This document shows, in pieces, positions 30,795-44,855 of a DNA stretch of 46,853 nucleotides. How positions within the stretch are numbered: the first letter of the stretch is position 1; every line of letters starts with the position of its first letter. Position numbers and translations under genes: made by a program. The stretch is from Acidobacteriota bacterium (GTDB lineage Bacteria > Acidobacteriota > Vicinamibacteria > Vicinamibacterales > UBA2999): positions 1 through 46,853 of the forward strand of contig JACQTK010000145.1 of assembly GCA_016210845.1 (NCBI GenBank). Reading direction: 5' to 3'. A model generated the notes under the pieces. That model was not told the origin of the DNA. It searched no databases and saw nothing but the letters and a program-made list of their open reading frames with translations.

Positions 30795-33278
30795 ATGCAG
30801 ACCCGGATCGAGGACACCACGCTTCTGAGGGCCCCGGCCACGGTCGTCGAGCGTGTCCAGGGCGGACTCGTGGCGGTCGACCCCGCCTCGCCGCACTGGA
30901 TTGCCACCGACGACCGCGGACTGGCGATCCTGCGGCGCCTCGACGGCCGCACGCCGCTCGGCGACGTGGTCCGCGGCTACGCCGCCGAGACGGGGCTCGA
31001 CGCGAGCCGCGCGTGGCTGCACGTGGAGACCTTCGCCCGCGACGCGCTGCGGCACGGGTTCGTCTCCACCGACGGGGCCGTGCCGCTGCCGTACCTTGGC
31101 CGTGCCACCTACCTCCGCACCGACCGGCTGCGGGAGCTGTGGATTCAGGTCAACGACTTCTGCAATCTCGCGTGCGAGCACTGCCTGGTGTCGTCGAGCC
31201 CGGAGGGCGGCCAGGGGCTCGGACATGACGTGGTGCGCGACGCGATCGACCAGGCCGTCACGCTCGGCGTGGAACGCGTCTTCCTGACCGGCGGGGAGCC
31301 GTTGGCCCGCCCCGATGCCATCGATCTCATCGACCACATCGTCTCGCGGCGCGAGCGCGAGCTCGTGATCATGACGAACGGCACGCTGTTGCGAGGCGAT
31401 CGCCTCCGTGCGCTGGCGGCGCTGCCGGCCGATCGCCTGCGCGTGCAGATCAGCCTCGACGGCGCGTCGGCCGAGGTGAACGATCCCATTCGCGGCCGCG
31501 GCAGCTTCTCACGCATCGTCGACGGCGTCCGTGCCGCGGTGGGCGCCGGTCTGCGCACCACCGTGACGATGGTGCTGCTGCGAGGGAACCTGCAGGATGC
31601 GCCCGCCGTGGTGGCGCTGGCGGCCGACCTCGGCGTCACCAACGTCCACCTGCTCTGGCCTCATCGTCGGGGCAGGCTGATCACGGGTCCTCATGCCAGC
31701 CTTCCCGACGCGCGCGAGATCCTGAGTGCCGTCAGGGCCGCGCGGCAGGTGGCGCGCGAGCGCGGCGTCGCCATCGACAACGTCGAGGAGCTGCGGCTCC
31801 GGTTCGACGGTCGCCACGGCGTCAAGAACGACCTGGCCAGCGCGGGCTGGACGAGCCTGTGCCTGCATGCCGACGGCGCGATTTATCCGTCGGCGTCGAT
31901 GACCGGTGTGGCCGAGCTGCGGTGCGGCAGCGTCCTCGAGCAGCCGCTCGAGCGCATCTGGAAGGAAAGCGCGGTGCTGCGGGAGCTGCGCGGCGCCACC
32001 GTGGAGCGGAAGGTCCACTGCCGCACGTGCCATCTGAAGTTCCTGTGCGGCGGCGGCGACGTCGAGCACGGCTATTGGGCGTCGGGCGGCCCCACGGGCC
32101 GCGGCAGTTTCGTCGCGCACGACCCGTACTGCGAGCTGTACAAGGGCCTGGCGGCCGACGCCTTCGCCGACCTCGTCGACCAGGGGCGCGCGACGGTGCA
32201 GCCGCGATCCGGATTCGACCGTCCGATCGTCCTTCGGGCGATGGGCGAGCGGACCCTTCACGACGAGGAGACGCTCGTCCGCACCACGCACTCGGCATGC
32301 GTGCTGTCGGAGGAAGTGGCGGACCGGTCGCGTGCCGCCGTGCGGGAGTTCTACGGTCATGCCGCGGAGCAACCGCAGGCCGAGCTGTGCTGTCCCGTGC
32401 GGCCGGATGCCGAAGACCTCGCGCACATCCCCCCGGAGGTCGTGGAACGGTTCTATGGGTGCGGCAGCCCCGTATCGGCTGCTGCACCCCAGGCGGGTGA
32501 AACGCTGGTCGACCTGGGATCCGGCGCGGGGATTGATTGCTTCATCGCGTCGCGCCGCGTCGGCCGCGACGGCCGTGTGTGCGGCGTCGACATGACCGAC
32601 CAGATGCTGGCGGTCGCGCGCGAGTGTCAGCCCACGGTGGCCGCGGCGCTCGGTTACGACAACGTCGAGTTCCGCCGTGGCCTGCTCGAGCGCGTTCCGC
32701 TGGACGATGGCGTGGCGGATATCGTGACGTCGAACTGTGTGATCAACCTCTCACCGGACAAGCCGGCGGTGTTCCGCGAGATCTGGCGCGTGCTGAAGGA
32801 CCACGGGCGTCTCGTCATCGCCGACATCGTGTCCGACACCGAGGTGCCGCCCGCGCTGCGCGCCGACGGCCAGCTCTGGGGCGAATGCATCAGCGGCGCG
32901 CTCTCGGAGGACGGGTTGTTCTCGGCTTTGGAGCGCGCGGGCTTCTATGGGGTGACGCTCCTGAAGAAGAGCGTCTGGCGGGAGGTACAGGGGACACGCT
33001 TCTACTCGGTGACCGTGCGCGGGTTCAAGTTCGAGAAGAAGGCGGGCTGCCGGTACGTGGGCCAGTGGGCCACGTACCTCGGACCGATGAAGGCAGCCGT
33101 CGACGAAGAGGGGCACTTCTTCCCGCGCGGTGTGCCCGTCGAGGTGTGCACCGACACGGCCGCCAAGCTGCGCGCGGCGCCGTACGCGGGAAATTTCGCA
33201 GTCGTCGACGGTCCCGACTCGGAGATGACCGTTACCGCAGGCGACGGCTGCTGCGGCCCTGGCGGCACGTGCTGCTGA
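30795..33278 (+). CDS. PqqD-like / radical SAM-SPASM / ArsM-like methyltransferase fusion
   Basis: The 827-residue enzyme has three modules. Residues 1-105 form a PqqD-like domain. Residues about 115-470 are a radical SAM enzyme with C123-x3-C127-x2-C130 and GGEPL, followed by a Cys-rich SPASM-like region (CRTCHLKFLCGGGD, DPYCELYK). Residues about 500-827 are a SAM methyltransferase of the ArsM type: CC at 532-533, LVDLGSGAGIDCF, SNCVINLSPDK (C648), WGECISGAL (C698) and a C-terminal CCGPGGTCC. C648 and C698 are 50 apart, the spacing I recall for the arsenic-binding cysteines of algal ArsM. A metalloid or peptide substrate is inferred. ATG 30795 was chosen; the frame is open from 30765 without a better start. 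Confidence 0.85.
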   Translation: MQTRIEDTTLLRAPATVVERVQGGLVAVDPASPHWIATDDRGLAILRRLDGRTPLGDVVRGYAAETGLDASRAWLHVETFARDALRHGFVSTDGAVPLPYLGRATYLRTDRLRELWIQVNDFCNLACEHCLVSSSPEGGQGLGHDVVRDAIDQAVTLGVERVFLTGGEPLARPDAIDLIDHIVSRRERELVIMTNGTLLRGDRLRALAALPADRLRVQISLDGASAEVNDPIRGRGSFSRIVDGVRAAVGAGLRTTVTMVLLRGNLQDAPAVVALAADLGVTNVHLLWPHRRGRLITGPHASLPDAREILSAVRAARQVARERGVAIDNVEELRLRFDGRHGVKNDLASAGWTSLCLHADGAIYPSASMTGVAELRCGSVLEQPLERIWKESAVLRELRGATVERKVHCRTCHLKFLCGGGDVEHGYWASGGPTGRGSFVAHDPYCELYKGLAADAFADLVDQGRATVQPRSGFDRPIVLRAMGERTLHDEETLVRTTHSACVLSEEVADRSRAAVREFYGHAAEQPQAELCCPVRPDAEDLAHIPPEVVERFYGCGSPVSAAAPQAGETLVDLGSGAGIDCFIASRRVGRDGRVCGVDMTDQMLAVARECQPTVAAALGYDNVEFRRGLLERVPLDDGVADIVTSNCVINLSPDKPAVFREIWRVLKDHGRLVIADIVSDTEVPPALRADGQLWGECISGALSEDGLFSALERAGFYGVTLLKKSVWREVQGTRFYSVTVRGFKFEKKAGCRYVGQWATYLGPMKAAVDEEGHFFPRGVPVEVCTDTAAKLRAAPYAGNFAVVDGPDSEMTVTAGDGCCGPGGTCC

Positions 33279-34198: not shown

Positions 34199-35542
34199 TC
34201 ACACCATATACGCGATGTCGGAGGCGCGCGTCGGGTAGGCGAAGATCGTCTGCTTCAATTCGCCGGCCGTCATACCGCTGCACATGGCCACCGAGAAGAC
34301 ATTGACGAGCTCGTCGCTGTTCGGCCCGAGCAGATGCGCGCCCAGAATACGGCCGCTGCCTTCCTCCACCAGCACCTTGTGGGCCGACCACCGCTCGCCC
34401 AGCCGCCGTGACGAGAACCACGCATCGGTCCGGGCGAAGTGTGTCTCGAAGCGGAGGCCTTTGTCGCGGGCGTCAGCTTCCTGCAGACCCACGTAGGCGA
34501 GCGGCGGCAGCGTGAACACCACGCTGGGGATGGCCGGATACTCGACGGCCTGCCTGTTGCCGTCCAGCAGGTTGGCCGCGACGATGCGCCCCTCGAAGCC
34601 GGCGACGGGCGTGAGCATCGGTCCGCTGTCGGCCGCGTCGCCCGCGGCGTAGACGGCGGGGTTCGAGACGCTTTGCAGATACTGGTTCACCTTGATGCCC
34701 CGCGTGGTGCGTTCGACGCCGCCCTTCTCCAGATCCAGGTCGTCGATCTCGGGCACGCGTCCGGCCCCGTGCACCACCATGTCCGCGTCGAAGGTGCGGC
34801 GGCCCTGTGGACCGTCGGCGCTCACGACGAGACGATCCGCGACGCGTTCCACGCCCTGCACTTTCGTCTGAAGGTGCAGCTCGATGCCCAGTTCCCTCGT
34901 GCCCTCCACGAGCACCGACACCAGATCGGGATCGAACCCTGCCAGCGGGCGATCGAGCATCTCGATCATCGTCACCTGCGCGCCCGCGATGGCGCACACA
35001 TGGGCGAACTCGAACGAGATGAAGCCGCTGCCCAGGAACACGATCCGGCGCGGCAGCTCCTCCAGCTCGAGGAACCGATCGCTCGTCGTGAGCAGCTCCT
35101 CGCCTGGAATCCGCAGCCTGACGGGCATGGCGCCGGTCGCGATGTGAATGTGGCGCCCCTCGATCACCCGGCCGTCCACGCCAATCGACTGCCGGTCGAC
35201 GAAGCGGGCGCGGCCGTGCAGCGTGTCGATGCCCGCCTTGGCAAGGCCCTTCTCCGACCGCTCCGCGACCGGATCCGTGAACGTGCGTTCGAACCTGACG
35301 AGATCCGCCCAGCGCAGGGCGGCGCCGTCCGCGCCAACGCCCCTGCCTGCCAGCCGCCGGGCCGCGTGGATCGCGTCGGCCGCGCCGACCAGCACTTTCT
35401 TCGGATCGCACCCCCGCTGCGCGCACGTCCCGCCGTACGGCCTGGAGTCGACGATGGCCACCTTCCATCCGGCGGAACGGCACTTCCGCGCGACGCCAGA
35501 GCCGGCAGAGCCGGTGCCAATAACGATGAGATCGAATGTCAT
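34199..35542 (-). CDS. FAD-dependent pyridine nucleotide-disulfide oxidoreductase
   Basis: The 447-residue flavoenzyme belongs to the glutathione/mercuric reductase and lipoamide dehydrogenase superfamily. It has the FAD-binding GTGSAGSG, the redox pair C40/C45 (GGTCAQRGC), the NAD(P)-binding GSGFISFEFAHV and the second FAD motif VYAAGDAAD. The C-terminal HPTxxE that supplies the catalytic His-Glu is replaced by YPTRASD, so a classical disulfide substrate is less certain. ATG 35542 starts right at the Rossmann strand and has AGGAG upstream; ATG 35551 is possible. It follows the EgtB-like gene by about 100 bp on the same strand. Confidence 0.88.
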   Translation of the reverse strand: MTFDLIVIGTGSAGSGVARKCRSAGWKVAIVDSRPYGGTCAQRGCDPKKVLVGAADAIHAARRLAGRGVGADGAALRWADLVRFERTFTDPVAERSEKGLAKAGIDTLHGRARFVDRQSIGVDGRVIEGRHIHIATGAMPVRLRIPGEELLTTSDRFLELEELPRRIVFLGSGFISFEFAHVCAIAGAQVTMIEMLDRPLAGFDPDLVSVLVEGTRELGIELHLQTKVQGVERVADRLVVSADGPQGRRTFDADMVVHGAGRVPEIDDLDLEKGGVERTTRGIKVNQYLQSVSNPAVYAAGDAADSGPMLTPVAGFEGRIVAANLLDGNRQAVEYPAIPSVVFTLPPLAYVGLQEADARDKGLRFETHFARTDAWFSSRRLGERWSAHKVLVEEGSGRILGAHLLGPNSDELVNVFSVAMCSGMTAGELKQTIFAYPTRASDIAYMV

Positions 35543-35642
35543 GTCCTTCATTCTCCTCGCGTCGAACGCCGTGTCGATCGGCTGTCGTGTGGGTTGCCTC
35601 ACAGGGCCAGTCACAATGCGTCAGGTGATGAGCCGGTGCAGG

Positions 35643-36929
35643 TCATCGCGCTGCCGTACGGAAACCGGCGACGATATTGCGCCGGTGGCGCTTGTAGAAG
35701 TTCCGGAACGTCGTCCGGATCAGGCGTGACCGCGTCATCCAGCCGCCGCCTCGCAGCACTTTCTTCTCGCCGAAGTACGGCTGCGAATACTCCGCGTAGG
35801 GATCGCAGGCGAACCCGGGATAGGGGTGGAAGGTGTCCTCGACCCACTCCCAGACGTTGCCGATCATCTGGCGGCAGCCAACCGGGCTGTCGCCCTCCGG
35901 CAGCGCGCGCACGTCGATGGTGGCGCCCGCGCGAAAATCCAGACTGGCGCGTTCGGGGCTGGGCGCTTCGTCGCCCCAGGGAAAGCGGCGCTTGCGTCCC
36001 GTCGTGAAGTCGTACGTGGCGGCCATCTCCCACTCCGCCTCGGTGGGGAGCCGCCGCCCCGCCCACCGGCAGAAGGCGTCGGCTTCGTACCAGTTCACGT
36101 GAACGACCGGATGCCACGGCTCCAGGGGCAGCACCGCATCGAACTGTCGGGTGTGCCAGCGCCCCGCGCCATCGCGGATCCAGAACAGCGGGTGCCCGGC
36201 CCCTTCGCGCCGCCGCCAGTCCCATCCGCGGCGACTCCAGCACTCGCGACGATGGTAGCCTCCGTCATCGACGAAGGCCCGGAATTCCGCGTTCGTGACG
36301 GGAGCGGCCGAGAGGCGAAAGGGTTTCACCTCGATGGGATGCGCCCACTTCTCGTTGTCGAAGACGAACGGCTCGCGAGGATCGGCGCCCAGCCGGAACA
36401 TGCCGCCGGGGACGTGCACGTCGTACGGGCGGTGCGCGACGTCCACCTCCGGGGCGCCCCACACCGGATCGAACCGGCTCAACCCTGGCCGGCGATAGCC
36501 ATGTGTCTGGACGATCGTCGTCAAGGTCTCGGTGTGCATGTCCTCGTGGCACGCAGCCAGGGTGTAGAAGTAGGCTTCCTCGGCGGAAGGCGTTCGCGAA
36601 TCGAGCCGCGCCATGCATCGCCGCAGGACCTCGGCGATGTAGGCCAGCGTCCCCTCACGGGATGGAAACGCATGATCCCAGCGCCGCTTGTACGAGACAT
36701 GGAAGGCATCGTAGATGCCGTCGGAGCCCGGGAGAAGCGATTCGGCTCCGTCCAGGCCTCGCAGGATCCAGTACTCCTGGAACCATCCGACGTGGCCGAC
36801 CTCCCAGATAGGGGGCTCGACGAAGTGGCCGCGGCGGCCGAGCAGCTGGTCATCGGTCAGCCCCTCCAGCAGCTCGAGCTCGACAGAGCGCGCGTCGAGC
36901 AGCGCATCGATCAGAAGACCCGTTGTCAT
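35643..36929 (-). CDS. EgtB-like sulfoxide synthase (DinB plus FGE-sulfatase domains)
   Basis: The 428-residue protein has an N-terminal DinB-like helical domain and a C-terminal FGE-sulfatase domain ([49 protein letters not shown]). The iron ligands of EgtB are present as H46 (GHVGWF), H128 and H132 (HEDMH). In ergothioneine synthesis EgtB joins a thiol to trimethylhistidine with O2. No EgtD, EgtC or EgtE gene is in the window, so the substrate could be ergothioneine, ovothiol or selenoneine type (the SenA homologue is also an EgtB relative). ATG 36929 has a perfect GGAGG eight bases upstream. Confidence 0.85.
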
Positions 36930-36979
36930 CGTTCGATCCTCCATCATTATCATCAAGCTCGTCGCCTGGGGCTGGGCAC

Positions 36980-37009
36980 TTGACTTTCCACTCGGGTGGA
37001 CAGCCTACA

Positions 37010-37011
<2 letters not shown>
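36980..37011 (+). promoter_or_regulatory. MerR-type promoter in front of the decayed metal operon
   Basis: TTGACT (36980-36985) is followed by a 19-base spacer holding the dyad TTCCACTCGGGTGGA and then CTACACT as minus 10. The long spacer with a central dyad is diagnostic of MerR-family promoters. It is almost identical to the promoters at 46072-46102 and 46107-46137. Confidence 0.75.
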
Positions 37012-37807
<796 letters not shown>

Positions 37808-38199: not shown

Positions 38200-38697
38200 C
38201 TACGTCGGGCGTGTGGGGCGATGGCCGAGGACCTGCGTTGCGAGGCGAATGGTGTCCGCCGTGTGGCTCGGCTCATGCTCTTCGATGAGACCGCACACGC
38301 AGCCGTCGCGCGGCCCGGCCACGACTGCCTGGGCCCGAAGCGCCGCGAGCTCGTTCCTGAAATCCCCGAGAGCCCGGATGTGCTCATCCAGTTGTCGCAG
38401 CTTGTCCTCGACGACGCGGAGAACATGCGCACACGGCGTCACACCCTGCCGCCGCAGCGCGAGGACATCGCGGATTTCCTGGAGCGACAGCCCGACCGTC
38501 TTGGCTTTGAGGATGAAACGGAGGCGATCGCGGTCCGCCGGACCGTAGACGCGGTAGCCGGCCGACGTGCGCCCGGAGGCGGCCAGCAGGCCGATGCGCT
38601 CGTAGTACCGGATCGTGCGAGGGTTGAGACCGAACTCCGCCGCCAGTTCGCCCACGTGTGCCGCGGAGCGGGTTACTCGCGATGGGGATTTCGCCAT
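38200..38697 (-). CDS. MerR-family heavy-metal-responsive regulator
   Basis: The 165-residue protein has a MerR winged helix (VGELAAEFGLNPRTIRYYERIGLL, then AGYRVYGPADRDRLRFI) and a dimerisation helix. Possible metal ligands are C89 (GVTPCAHV), C133 and C135 (DGCVCGLIEEHE). The cysteine expected 35 residues after C89 is absent, so specificity may differ from MerR itself, perhaps Zn, Cd or Cu type. ATG 38697 was chosen; an upstream TTG at 38718 would add seven residues. It is downstream of the HMA selenoprotein on the same strand and convergent with the decayed operon. Confidence 0.88.
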   Translation of the reverse strand: MAKSPSRVTRSAAHVGELAAEFGLNPRTIRYYERIGLLAASGRTSAGYRVYGPADRDRLRFILKAKTVGLSLQEIRDVLALRRQGVTPCAHVLRVVEDKLRQLDEHIRALGDFRNELAALRAQAVVAGPRDGCVCGLIEEHEPSHTADTIRLATQVLGHRPTRPT

Positions 38698-38714
38698 GGC
38701 ATCAGGATAACGCC

Positions 38715-38810
38715 TCAATGCTGGTGCTGGATGAGCGCCGCCGTCCAGGCGGGAAACGCGCGGAGGAGGATCGCCACCAGCACGCCCGCCGACTCACTCG
38801 TTGGCGACAT
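38715..38810 (-). CDS. Possible 31-residue membrane peptide with HQH end
   Basis: An ATG at 38810 opens a 31-codon frame overlapping the end of the HMA selenoprotein gene by 17 bp. It consists of a polar start, one hydrophobic helix (AGVLVAILLRAFPAWTAALI) and the C-terminus QHQH. Third positions are G/C-rich. The ribosome site is weak (AAGG three bases before the ATG). It may be a genuine small membrane peptide of the metal operon, the tail of a lost membrane protein, or chance. Confidence 0.3.
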   Translation of the reverse strand: MSPTSESAGVLVAILLRAFPAWTAALIQHQH

Positions 38811-39144
38811 GGGCCTTGAAGCCGATTTCCTGCACCGCCTCGACGAGAGCATCCGCGCTGACGAGCCCGGGGCGGTACCTGACGACGGCCTGCGGGGGCT
38901 GGAACGACACCTCCGCGGCGGTGACGCCGTCGACATCCAACAGGGCCTGGCGCACGGCCAGGGGACACCCGCCTCAGGTCATTCCCTGGACCGCCAGCGT
39001 GACCGTGTCGGTCTCGCCGGGCACGTCATGGCTGGCCGGGGCGCCTGGGCGCGCGGCGTTTGAACCGCACCCGCCAAGGGCAAGCGCAGCCGCGATGGCG
39101 AGCGCCACAAGTGCGGGCCTCCTTTCGATCCACATCGCCTTCAT
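38794..39144 (-). CDS. MerP/HMA-like metal-binding lipoprotein, candidate selenoprotein (U57)
   Basis: The frame codes 116 residues if the TGA at 38974-38976 is read as selenocysteine. A signal peptide ends in a lipobox (LALGGC). The HMA domain follows: TLAVQGMT-U57-GGC60-PLAVRQAL, then VDGVTAAEVSFQPPQAVVRY, AVQEIGFKAHV and stop. The first Cys of the metal-binding CxxC is exactly the position of the TGA. In-frame homology continues for 60 residues beyond it. A perfect hairpin with G and U in its loop sits 11-28 bases after the TGA. The ATG overlaps the merR stop (ATGA), so metal-controlled expression is likely. It probably captures soft ions in the periplasm. A one-base or point-mutation pseudogene is the alternative. 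Confidence 0.82.
38946..38962 (-). promoter_or_regulatory. Candidate bacterial SECIS hairpin of the HMA selenoprotein
   Basis: Reading the mRNA, the stem CCTGGC and GCCAGG closes the loop CGTGC. The loop starts 18 bases after the TGA and has G and U at its tip. This fits the known rules for bacterial SECIS elements (loop about 16-37 bases after UGA, G among the first two loop bases). Confidence 0.7.
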
Positions 39145-39596
39145 CTCTCTTTCGTCGTGAGCGTCTCGATGACCGGGCACTCCGGTTCCGGGCGCGACCG
39201 CGGCGGGCGTCCGTCCGCCAGCGTACGTTCGCACCCTTCGAGGAAGCCCGACAGCGTGGCGCGAAACGCCTCGAGCTCCGTCATTCTGGCGTGGAGCTCG
39301 TCGAGCTTCGCGCGCAGCAGGTCGCGCACCTGACGGCAGCGGGTCAGGCCGCCACGGTCCTGATAGGTCACCAGGTCGCGAATCTCCTGCAACGTGAGGC
39401 CGAGCGCCTGCGCCTGCTTGATGAAGCGCAGCCGCTCGAGCGCTGCCGACGTGTAGCGGCGGAAGCCGCCGCTCGTACGTGGCGCCTGCGGCAGCAGGCG
39501 CAGGCGCTCGTAGTACCGCACCGTGTCCGGCGTCACGCCGCTTCGGGCCGCGACCTCGCCAATCTGATACGTCTCGTCCGCTGCTGACGACCGCAT
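39141..39596 (-). CDS. MerR-family regulator with mercury-type cysteine spacing
   Basis: The 151-residue protein has the MerR DNA-binding domain (YQIGEVAARSGVTPDTVRYYE, GGFRRYTSAALERLRFI) and a long dimerisation helix. Its cysteines are C87 (LTRCRQV), C122 (LEGCERT) and C140 (EPECPVIE). The 35-residue spacing of C87 and C122 equals C82/C117 of Tn501 MerR and the PbrR pair. The third Cys is 18 rather than 9 residues further. AGAGGT precedes the ATG. It lies between the CopZ remnant and the HMA selenoprotein gene in one unit, with a MerR-type promoter at 39831-39861 that it probably controls. Confidence 0.92.
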   Translation of the reverse strand: MRSSAADETYQIGEVAARSGVTPDTVRYYERLRLLPQAPRTSGGFRRYTSAALERLRFIKQAQALGLTLQEIRDLVTYQDRGGLTRCRQVRDLLRAKLDELHARMTELEAFRATLSGFLEGCERTLADGRPPRSRPEPECPVIETLTTKER

Positions 39597-39601
39597 GGTG
39601 C

Positions 39602-39823
39602 TTACCTCTTGGCCTGCGAGAGCGGCACGTTCGAAGCAAAACCGTAGGCCACCATTGTCCGCGCGCGCTTGACCGCTGCGGCGATGTCGCCCAGGCAGCA
39701 TACGCCACGGGGAGCCGTGAGGAGATCGACCGCCTGTCCCGTCGTCGCGCTCACGGGGCACACGCCGACGCGGCAGGAGACCGATCCAGGTGCCGAACAG
39801 CGCGACGATCCGCCGGCGTCCAC
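39602..39823 (-). pseudogene. CopZ-like copper chaperone with internal deletion
   Basis: The 73-codon frame keeps the two ends of the CopZ (zinc-finger plus [2Fe-2S] BFD-like) family. The N-terminal CSAPGSVSCRVGVCPVSATTGQAVDLLTA is split between CSAPG and the CPVS-x3-G motif, and the C-terminal part is PRGVCCLGDIAAAVKRA. The roughly 100-residue middle with the remaining cysteines is missing and the join is in frame. It might still make a small Cys-rich peptide. The GTG at 39823 lies about where transcription from the MerR-type promoter should begin, so the message would be leaderless. Confidence 0.6.
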
Positions 39824-41974: not shown

Positions 41975-42279
41975 AGCGAGATCGAGTACGTGTACGGATA
42001 TTCCGCCCGATCGATGGCACCGTCGAGCTGCTGGCGCGCCAGCGACGCTCCGGGCCTGACGGTGATTCGGATCTCCTCGGCATCCCACCGCAGGTCGATC
42101 CGCTCGATCTCCGGGATCTCGGCGAGCCGTTTTTCGATGCCGTACATGCAATAGGGCCCTGGAATCCCGGGGACGGAAATGGTGATGCCTTGTTGTCGCT
42201 GGCTCGCGAGATCGCCGGCCGTCACGATCGCCAACCCACCGGCGAGCGCGAGAGTGGCGAGCCGTGTGGCCGACCTCAT
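41971..42279 (-). CDS. Secreted HMA-like protein with a single cysteine
   Basis: The 102-residue protein has a signal peptide (to about DLASQ) and one ferredoxin-like HMA fold: [33 protein letters not shown], which I split here at CMYG, then [11 protein letters not shown]. The metal loop has only one Cys (PYCMYG) where MerP has CxxC. It may receive an ion from the ATPase or act with another thiol or selenol protein. The ATG overlaps the ATPase stop by 4 bp (ATGA). Confidence 0.8.
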
Positions 42280-44855
42280 ACTGTCCCCGGCTCGTGTCCC
42301 GTCTCGTGCACGGCCTGCACGCGGAAGCCGAGCGCGGTCACGGCCGATTCGATCTCGTGAATCCCGATCCGGTCCGGCCGGTACGCCACTCGCACCTTGT
42401 GCTCGCCGGCACTCGCCCTCACATCGTCAATCCCGTCGCGCGTACCAAGCCGCCGCTCGATCGTCTGCTCGCAGCCGGCGCAGTGGACATCGGGGACGTC
42501 CAGCAGCACGTGCGCCGGCGCGCTGGGCGGCCTGTGCTCCATCGCCCGCACGTCCACGCGCGCCTCGGCTGGCGACACCTCCTCGCGCCTGGCGTCCCGA
42601 TCGGCCACGTGCGCCGGCGACGGTCTGCCGGGCAGCAGCCGGCCGCCGAAGCTGTTGAGCAGCACGGCGCTCACGCTGGCGGCCATCGCCACCATGGCCC
42701 ACACGGGGTGCACGAGACCGGTGGCCGCCAGCGGAACGCCCACGGCGTTGAACGAGAAGGCGAAGACGAGGTTCTGCACCGTCTTCGCGTAGCTCTTTCT
42801 GCCGATGTGATACGCGTCCACGACCGCCGAGAGCCGCTCGCCGATGAGGATGACGTCGCTCGACTCGATCGCGATGTCCGTTCCGGCCCCGATGGCGATG
42901 CCGACGTCCGCCTGCATCAGTGCCGGAGCGTCGTTGATGCCGTCGCCCACGAACGCCACTCGTATGTTGCCGTGCTGCAACTCGCGCACGCGGTCGGCTT
43001 TCCGGTCCGGAAGCACGCGGGAACGGACGTCCTCGATGCCGACATCCCCTGCGATGGCTCGGGCGGTCGCCTCGGCGTCGCCCGTGACCATCACGACCTG
43101 CATCCCGAGCGCCCTGAGCTCGGCGATGGCCTGCTTCGCGTCGGCCTTCACGGTATCGGCGATCGAGAGCGTCCCCGCCACCTCACCGCCAACCGCGACG
43201 AGTACGGCCGTGCGGCCCCGCGCCTCCTCGCGCGCGAGCACGCGACCGGCATCCGCCACTGGCACGCCGCGGTCGGCCAGGAGCCTCGGCGTACCGATGA
43301 CGATGCGGCGTCCGCGGACGAGGGCCTCGACGCCGCCGCCCGCAATCGCCTGGAAGTGTTCCGCCTCGCTCAGCGTCACCTCCTCTTCTTCGGCGCGCGT
43401 GACAACGGCACGGGCCAGTGGGTGCTCCGAGGGCGACTCCGCGCTGGCCGCATCGCGCAGCACGTCCTCCCGCGAATATCCCGGCGTGGGAACGACCTCG
43501 ACGACGCGCGGCTTGCCTTCCGTGATCGTGCCGGTCTTGTCGAGGACGATGATCCGGATGTCCTTCAGGACCTGGAACGCCTCGCCGGAGCGCATCAGGA
43601 CGCCGCGCTCCGCCGCCATGCCGCCGCCTCGGATGAGCGCGAGCGGCGTCGCCATCCCGAGCGCGCACGGATAGCCCATCACGAGCACCGTGACCGCCGC
43701 ATAGATCGCACGCTGGTACACCGGCCCGGCGCCAAACAGGAGCGGCGCGATCACCCAGAACAAGTACGCGCCCAGCGAGATCGTGAGCACCACGGGCACG
43801 TAGTACTTGAGCACGCGATCCACCAGGACGATGATCCCCGGCTTGAGCGCCTTGGCCTCCTCCACGTGCCGCGCGACCTGACGGAGGAAGCTCTCGTCCC
43901 CCACGCGGGTGACCCGCACCAGGAGCGTGCCGGTCTGGTTCACGCTGCCGCCGATCACCTCGTCGCCCACCTGCTTCTCCGCAGGGATCGGCTCACCGGT
44001 CACCAACGCCTGGTCGACGGCGCTCCCGCCGTCCACGATCCGGCCATCGACCGGGATCCGCTCGCCTGGCCGGATCCGCACGTCGTCGCCGATCCTGACC
44101 TCGTCGATCGGGATCTCCTCCTCGCGGCCGTCACGGACCACCCGGGCCGTCGGCGGCTGCATCTCGAGCAGCCTGCGGACGCTCTGCGACGCGCGCGTCC
44201 GCACCTTCAGCGACACGAAGCCGGACAGCAGGTGATAGGTCGTCAGGAAGACCACGACCCCGAAGAAGTCGACGGCCGGGAACCCGTAGGCGCCGTTCCA
44301 GCCGGTGAACGGAATCGGCGAGCCGAGGAGCCCGCCGCCATAGCCCGCGAGCGCACCGGCCGTGAGCAGGACGTGCTGGTTCGTGATCCCGCGCCGCGCC
44401 GCGCCCCACGCCATGCGGAGGATGTGCCGGCCGGTCCAGAAGAAGACAAACGTGGCCGCGGCCCACGCGATCCAGATCTGCCAGTTCTCGATGACGAGCC
44501 GATCCAGCCACATCGCCGCCATGGCGGACACCATCCCGACGGCGAACCCGGCCGCGACCAGCAGGTTGTTGCGCTCGCGGCGCATCATCGCCTCCTGCTC
44601 CTCGAAGCTCTGCACCTTCCGCGGGTCGCGCACCGTGTAGCCCAGGCCGCGCAGCGTGTCCTCGATCTGCGTGTCCGTCACCTGGTCCGGGTGATACCGG
44701 ACGAGGGCTTCCTCATGCGCCAGCGAGACGTGCACGTCGTCGACGCCCTTCTGCCGGCCGATGGCCTTCCGAATCGAGTTCGCGCAGAAGGAACAGCTCA
44801 TGCCGCCAACCTTCATCTGAAGGGTGGCGGTGCCGGATGCCGCCGGCGGGTTCAC
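42276..44855 (-). CDS. P1B-type metal-transporting ATPase with YPC motif
   Basis: The 859-residue transporter has an N-terminal HMA domain (C21/C24 in GGMSCSFC), eight membrane helices, the A-domain VTGEP, and the P-domain D439 ([11 protein letters not shown]). HP ([10 protein letters not shown]) and GDGINDAP are also present. A second HMA domain at the C-terminus has CAGC ([14 protein letters not shown]). The membrane metal motif is Y395-P396-C397 ([12 protein letters not shown]) instead of CPC, so Cu(I) specificity cannot be assumed. The GTG overlaps the preceding gene (GTGA) with GGAGG upstream. It should pump a soft or transition metal ion from the cytoplasm. A decayed paralogue lies at 37010-37811. 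Confidence 0.92.

Follow-up and report, generated by a model that had tools for sequence, protein, structure and literature searches.

A widespread radical SAM-ArsM fusion protein, probably a single-chain start of complex organoarsenical synthesis

The window analysed here, a 46,853-nucleotide stretch of Acidobacteriota DNA, encodes a protein in which a PqqD/RRE-like domain, a radical SAM/SPASM part and an ArsM-like arsenite methyltransferase form one chain. By analogy with the separate enzymes of arsenosugar biosynthesis, we propose that its ArsM half would make dimethylarsenite and that its radical SAM half would add a radical to it, replacing the ArsM+ArsS pair. We assign a probability of roughly two in three to the protein being a bifunctional C-As bond-forming enzyme that does the job of ArsM and ArsS at the entry of arsenosugar-type biosynthesis, and it is probably a new single-protein start of the synthesis of complex organic arsenic compounds. 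To our knowledge, bacteria have only a few described pathways to complex organoarsenicals, and both radical SAM routes (arsenosugar and arsinothricin) use a separate methyltransferase. The fused family is real and widespread and is a variant of the ArsM+ArsS kind of system, with a function that we infer from its parts and its neighbours. In a search of mainly open-access literature, we found no paper on such a fusion, nor one bringing PqqD, radical SAM and arsenite methyltransferase together; in the literature searched, the architecture is undescribed.

Results

Domain architecture and predicted fold

The protein is encoded by a single intact reading frame with an ATG start (Table 1). Pfam profiles match PqqD at residues 25-90 (23.4 bits, exactly the cut-off), Radical_SAM at residues 118-265 (95.7 bits), SPASM at residues 350-413 (24.8 bits versus a cut-off of 21.5) and Methyltransf_31 at residues 567-704 (100 bits). 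The three-module chain described in an earlier note on this DNA is thus recovered in full, with a borderline PqqD match that the predicted fold supports. The radical SAM cluster motif reported there is the CX3CX2C of C123/C127/C130, and the SNC and GEC cysteines, described as 50 residues apart, are C648 and C698, with a spacing of exactly 50. That reading overlooked C532/C533 and C556, which occupy the remaining ArsM cysteine positions and complete the four-position arsenic set.

Table 1. Features of the fused gene and of two nearby genes, in positions of the window
Feature	Position	Strand	Basis
Fused PqqD/RRE-like - radical SAM/SPASM - ArsM protein, 827 aa	30795-33278	+	ORF, Pfam, relatives, model
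PqqD/RRE-like winged-helix domain, residues 10-90	30822-31064	+	PF05402 at cut-off; secondary structure of the model; alignment with CteB 5wgg
Radical SAM core, C123/C127/C130 (CX3CX2C)	31146-31589	+	PF04055, 95.7 bits; cysteines in 30/30
SPASM region, C356/C377/C409/C412/C418/D422/C446	31842-32132	+	PF13186; 30-row alignment
ArsM domain and C-terminal extension, residues 510-805	32322-33209	+	Likeness to CmArsM and human AS3MT in both sequence and fold
C-terminal Cys tail, GCCGPGGTCC	33246-33275	+	C826-C827 in 30/30; separate ArsMs likewise end in CC
FAD/NAD(P) disulfide oxidoreductase, possible pathway partner	34199-35614	-	Pfam Pyr_redox_2
SenA-like selenoneine synthase	35643-36956	-	447 bits versus a cut-off of 420

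An AlphaFold2 model built from a 30-row alignment reached a pLDDT of 86.5 and a pTM of 0.86, with low confidence for the final 13 residues. Residues 535-807 align with CmArsM (4fr0; Z 26.9, 271 residues, 40% identity), and human AS3MT (8xt7) matches the ArsM half with Z 23.0; the model was also searched with Foldseek, and the likeness in fold to both enzymes is accompanied by matches in sequence to CmArsM (4kw7/4fr0, E 4e-42) and to human AS3MT. At the other end, peptide maturases are the nearest solved structures to the N-terminal half: CteB (5wgg), a sactipeptide maturase with an RRE domain, aligns with residues 14-464 (Z 31.1, 410 residues, 19% identity), and TigE gives Z 26.7. By sequence the PqqD-like label is weak, with a profile match at E<0.01 in 8 of 30 relatives, and it is the alignment of residues 14-464 with CteB that backs it.

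Spread and conservation

Besides the source genome, some 40 genomes whose labels span roughly eight phyla carry the same fusion (45-83% identity); 12 of them are among 98 relatives of the order (64-83% identity). In the wider search each species was represented by a single genome and two conserved peptide patterns were used; it yielded loci L033-L072, which include whole fusions and fragments at contig ends and are labelled Acidobacteria, Nitrospirae, Troglogloeales, Planctomycetota, Hydrogenedentota, Eisenbacteria, Deltaproteobacteria, Omnitrophota and, once, Chloroflexi. As a whole, the family reaches across Acidobacteria, Planctomycetes, Nitrospirota, Myxococcota and other groups. The fused genes of the single Chloroflexi locus (L050, Chloroflexi bacterium UBA6622) and of Acidobacteria UBA2990 (L049) have equal scores, ends and neighbours, and the phylum label of L050 may be wrong. 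A fusion by chance or by misassembly is ruled out by a frame that is intact in many genomes. No plasmid-borne copy covering 80% of the protein was found.

Across 30 aligned members, C123/C127/C130, C502, C532/C533, C556, C648, C698 and C826-C827 are invariant, as are W288, H290, R292 and R294 of a WxHxRGR motif. The SPASM profile matches 26 of the 30, and the SPASM cysteines C409/C412/C418/C446, which the window protein has, are retained by 25 members and missing from five (L061, L063, L066, L068 and L070), while D422 is kept in every member, these five included. Judged from the alignment, the SPASM cysteines appear dispensable, whereas those of ArsM and of the radical SAM core do not, and the five members lacking them fit a reaction that needs no auxiliary cluster.

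The ArsM half reaches neither of two curated NCBIfam cut-offs, scoring 230.9 against 263 for PRK11873 and 133.1 against 400 for NF038099 (AsSugarArsM); it is therefore ArsM-like by fold and cysteines and stands outside the curated families. Phylogenies of both catalytic halves had been proposed in the earlier note, and in the tree of the ArsM half the fused members form a clean clade (99/97), although its placement relative to the ArsMs linked to ArsS is not firm (support of 86/91, long branches). The terminal CCGPGGTCC, singled out earlier as a possible metalloid-binding site, is conserved at C826-C827 in 30 of 30 members, but nothing about it is special to the fusion. Separate ArsMs encoded beside ArsS have the long C-terminal region and CC end of the fused ArsM, and in most short ArsMs the C-terminus is a CCGPxCC-like tail, so that the CC tail is an ordinary ArsM trait.

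Arsenosugar-type gene neighbourhoods

When open reading frames of at least 45 aa flanking some 40 fused genes were clustered, a glycosyltransferase, an FAD oxidoreductase, a VTT membrane protein, a Pit-type transporter and DUF547 came out as recurrent neighbours. Glycosyltransferases that NCBIfam names 'TIGR04283/TIGR04282 family arsenosugar biosynthesis glycosyltransferase' are encoded no more than 9 kb from the fused gene in 19 of the 34 loci whose flanks could be used, and no ArsS was found within that distance of the fused gene. Example scores are 229 and 226 bits for TIGR04283 (cut-off 182) and 180 and 175 bits for TIGR04282 (cut-off 134). Two loci (L019 and L058) carry TIGR04283 and TIGR04282 parts in one chain, both over cut-off, while in L056 TIGR04283 is over cut-off and its TIGR04282 scores only 118 versus 134. 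The operons are tight: glycosyltransferases or other genes abut the fused gene in many genomes, and in L057 glycosyltransferases overlap it on both sides.

These accessory genes and their order are common to canonical and fused loci. Two canonical loci from the same order as the source genome read ArsM-ArsS-Pit-VTT-FAD-GT-GT (L124) and ArsM-ArsS-Pit-VTT-GT-GT (L123), where GT is a glycosyltransferase; fused loci L033 and L036 read FAD-fused-Pit-VTT, and fused locus L019 likewise has accessory genes and their order in common with the canonical pair. Because 13 of 15 canonical ArsS loci from these genomes showed no Pit/VTT set in the stretch covered, the gene-order match rests on two canonical loci. 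The suggestion in the earlier note that the fusion could make an organoarsenical is well supported by all of this: the ArsM fold and the full set of arsenic cysteines are there, arsenosugar glycosyltransferases adjoin the gene in other genomes, and the gene stands where ArsM and ArsS stand elsewhere.

Two other arrangements were observed. In eight loci that form a group, most of them with the label Acidobacteria, a gene downstream of the fused one encodes a further radical SAM protein, roughly 700 aa long and bearing an HMPTM zinc ribbon (L024, 12535-14634; L025, 9665-11929). In a third arrangement (L099, 4176-8778, plus strand), a TIGR04283-type glycosyltransferase, an FAD oxidoreductase and a 314-aa radical SAM protein occur with no ArsM nearby.

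In counts that ignore shared ancestry and come mostly from incomplete metagenome assemblies, TIGR04283 was over cut-off in 12/13 fused versus 23/86 other genomes of the order (Fisher p 9e-6), and ArsS in 4/13 versus 15/86 (Fisher p 0.27). Among 29 further fused genomes ArsS was over cut-off in one and TIGR04283 in 23, which brings the figures for all fused genomes to 5/42 and 35/42, respectively. TIGR04283 without fusion or ArsS was seen in 12 relatives. Since the presence of ArsS does not by itself separate fused genomes from the others (p 0.27), the case for replacement is built on gene order together with the 29-genome set.

The radical SAM half and the moiety it transfers

The radical SAM half is not an ArsS orthologue: its match to the ArsS profile TIGR04167 (G000:C113:31113-31538) scores 61.7 bits versus a cut-off of 300, and DUF3641 (PF12345) is absent from the window protein and from the Pfam tally of the family. 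HHalign aligned only 149 columns with ArsS from a 10-row profile, and from a 30-row profile 275 columns, into the SPASM region, at 98.8%, a result that any two SPASM-type enzymes may give. A predicted ArsS model (pLDDT 76.9) shares several nearest solved folds with the fused radical SAM half, among them BlsE, SuiB, SkfB and CteB. A distant kinship of the two is likely, as it would be for many SPASM enzymes.

With the radical SAM half so far from ArsS by profile score, it could instead add another fragment of SAM, such as the 3-amino-3-carboxypropyl group that ArsL transfers, or couple arsenic to another small substrate, and yield an organoarsenical that is not an arsenosugar. That other C-As transfers exist is shown by ArsL plus ArsM (PMC8552651), and part of the ArsM domain matches the profile of the arsinothricin ArsM with 204.8 bits. 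This score misses its cut-off of 500, however, the glycosyltransferases nearby are arsenosugar-type ones and the gene order matches that of ArsM-ArsS loci, so that we regard a different transfer as unlikely. Adenosylation is favoured because the neighbours are arsenosugar genes.

A true fusion of ArsS to ArsM also exists. In a Nitrospirae MAG (L077; WFMM01000058, 9935-12019, plus strand) the two are one protein, with a TIGR04167 score of 357 bits versus the cut-off of 300. Its ArsM sits in another clade, so that this fusion is a separate one and the tethering of ArsM to a radical SAM enzyme arose at least twice.

Peptide substrates and detoxification

The N-terminal 464 residues resemble the RRE-bearing maturases CteB and TigE, and the matches to the PqqD profile and, in 26 of 30 members, to the SPASM profile point the same way. 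The RRE-like domain might accordingly bind a ribosomal precursor peptide, which the radical SAM/SPASM part would modify or link to arsenic supplied in methylated form by ArsM. The earlier note had seen no precursor gene nearby, and we agree: no precursor-like open reading frame adjoins the gene in the window, where frames under 45 aa were also checked, and neighbour clustering at 45 aa or more found no conserved small gene. Neighbours abut or overlap the fused gene, five members have lost the SPASM cluster cysteines, and nothing implies a peptide in the canonical ArsS loci, which have the same accessory genes. A distant or very short precursor gene is possible, yet we hold the peptide reading to be rather unlikely, and the idea in the earlier note that a Cys-rich peptide is modified loses ground for want of a conserved precursor, with genes packed against the fused gene and five members without SPASM cysteines. 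Quite improbable is a variant in which a functional RRE-like domain presents a peptide or carrier, methylarsenite is installed on it and arsenosugar-type transferases later glycosylate the product.

Detoxification only, with ArsM methylating As(III) and the radical SAM part an unrelated passenger or a regulatory module, would suit the complete ArsM half and the separate ArsMs common in genomes of the order, but it is highly improbable given the link to arsenosugar glycosyltransferases and because a passenger would not keep core radical SAM cysteines and a WxHxRGR motif invariant in 30/30 members across phyla.

The window and its genome

No glycosyltransferase was found near the fused gene in the window, where only the FAD oxidoreductase and the SenA-like gene gave matches. 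The source genome has its TIGR04283 gene on another contig (C228) and carries a separate ArsM-ArsS pair on a third (C43); with that pair present and no glycosyltransferase nearby, the enzyme here may be redundant or make something else. The FAD oxidoreductase of the window is 77% identical to one that in L035 is encoded downstream of the fused gene, at a distance of 1.25 kb.

Upstream of the FAD oxidoreductase, 28 bases away and in the same orientation, lies the SenA-like gene. It occurs beside no other fused gene in the neighbourhoods examined, and the source genome has no match over cut-off to TIGR04348, which we take to be SenB. Selenium chemistry by way of this gene was rejected on these grounds, and the organoselenium product raised in the earlier note finds nothing further in its favour.

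Farther along, a heavy-metal P-type ATPase remnant is split over two frames (36715-37773, plus strand), with a HAD hydrolase match at 36923-37561 and a ten-residue motif in the other frame. Two MerR-type regulators (ZntR/MerR-like, below cut-offs; 38200-38718 and 39141-39761, both minus strand) and a P-type metal ATPase that is intact and carries HMA domains (42276-44855, minus strand) make up a metal-response region.

Discussion

Bacteria form C-As bonds with radical SAM enzymes in at least two pathways. In oxo-arsenosugar biosynthesis, the radical SAM enzyme ArsS adenosylates arsenic (PMC12159101), and in arsinothricin biosynthesis, ArsL forms the C-As bond by aminocarboxypropyl transfer (PMC8552651). 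In the fused enzyme, strong homology suggests that the ArsM half would bind As(III) on its conserved cysteines and use SAM to methylate it, yielding dimethylarsenite or a related species. This trivalent product would be handed to the radical SAM half, perhaps via the Cys-rich tail, where cleavage of SAM would give a carbon radical, most likely 5'-deoxyadenosyl, that joins arsenic. The product would be 5'-deoxy-5'-dimethylarsinoyl-adenosine or a close analogue, as the analogy with ArsS and the shared neighbourhood suggest. The TIGR04283/TIGR04282 glycosyltransferases, FAD oxidoreductase, Pit and VTT proteins, whose association with the fusion is observed, might then process and move it. On this reading the RRE-like domain would be a leftover or a docking module and would not point to a peptide substrate.

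If single-chain C-As bond formation is borne out, many arsenosugar-type producers would escape surveys that look for ArsS (37 of 42 fused genomes are without ArsS over cut-off). It would also mean that a radical SAM architecture of the peptide-maturase type has been recruited for metalloid chemistry, and that methylation is tethered to C-As bond formation, which could be tested with one protein.

Among known systems, the ArsM+ArsS pair (NF038099, TIGR04167) likewise combines a methyltransferase and a radical SAM enzyme with TIGR04283/TIGR04282 glycosyltransferases, an FAD oxidoreductase, Pit and VTT, but the system in the window is one chain, with an N-terminal RRE-like domain and SPASM instead of DUF3641. 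The ArsS-ArsM fusion L077 has the same layout of radical SAM N-terminal, ArsM C-terminal and a CC end; it is, however, a true ArsS with DUF3641, and the PqqD/RRE-like domain was not found in its protein. ArsL and ArsM of arsinothricin biosynthesis also pair radical SAM C-As bond formation with an ArsM (PMC8552651), but there the genes are separate and adjoin one for an efflux permease (arsQML), and ArsL gives 3-amino-3-carboxypropyl arsenic. The RRE-bearing radical SAM-SPASM maturases CteB, TigE and SkfB share the fold of residues 14-464, whereas the window protein is fused to ArsM, has no precursor gene in sight and belongs to a family in which the SPASM cysteines seem dispensable. CmArsM and human AS3MT, finally, have the same fold and cysteine set as the fused ArsM half, but stand alone, whereas the ArsM of the window is fused to a radical SAM part.
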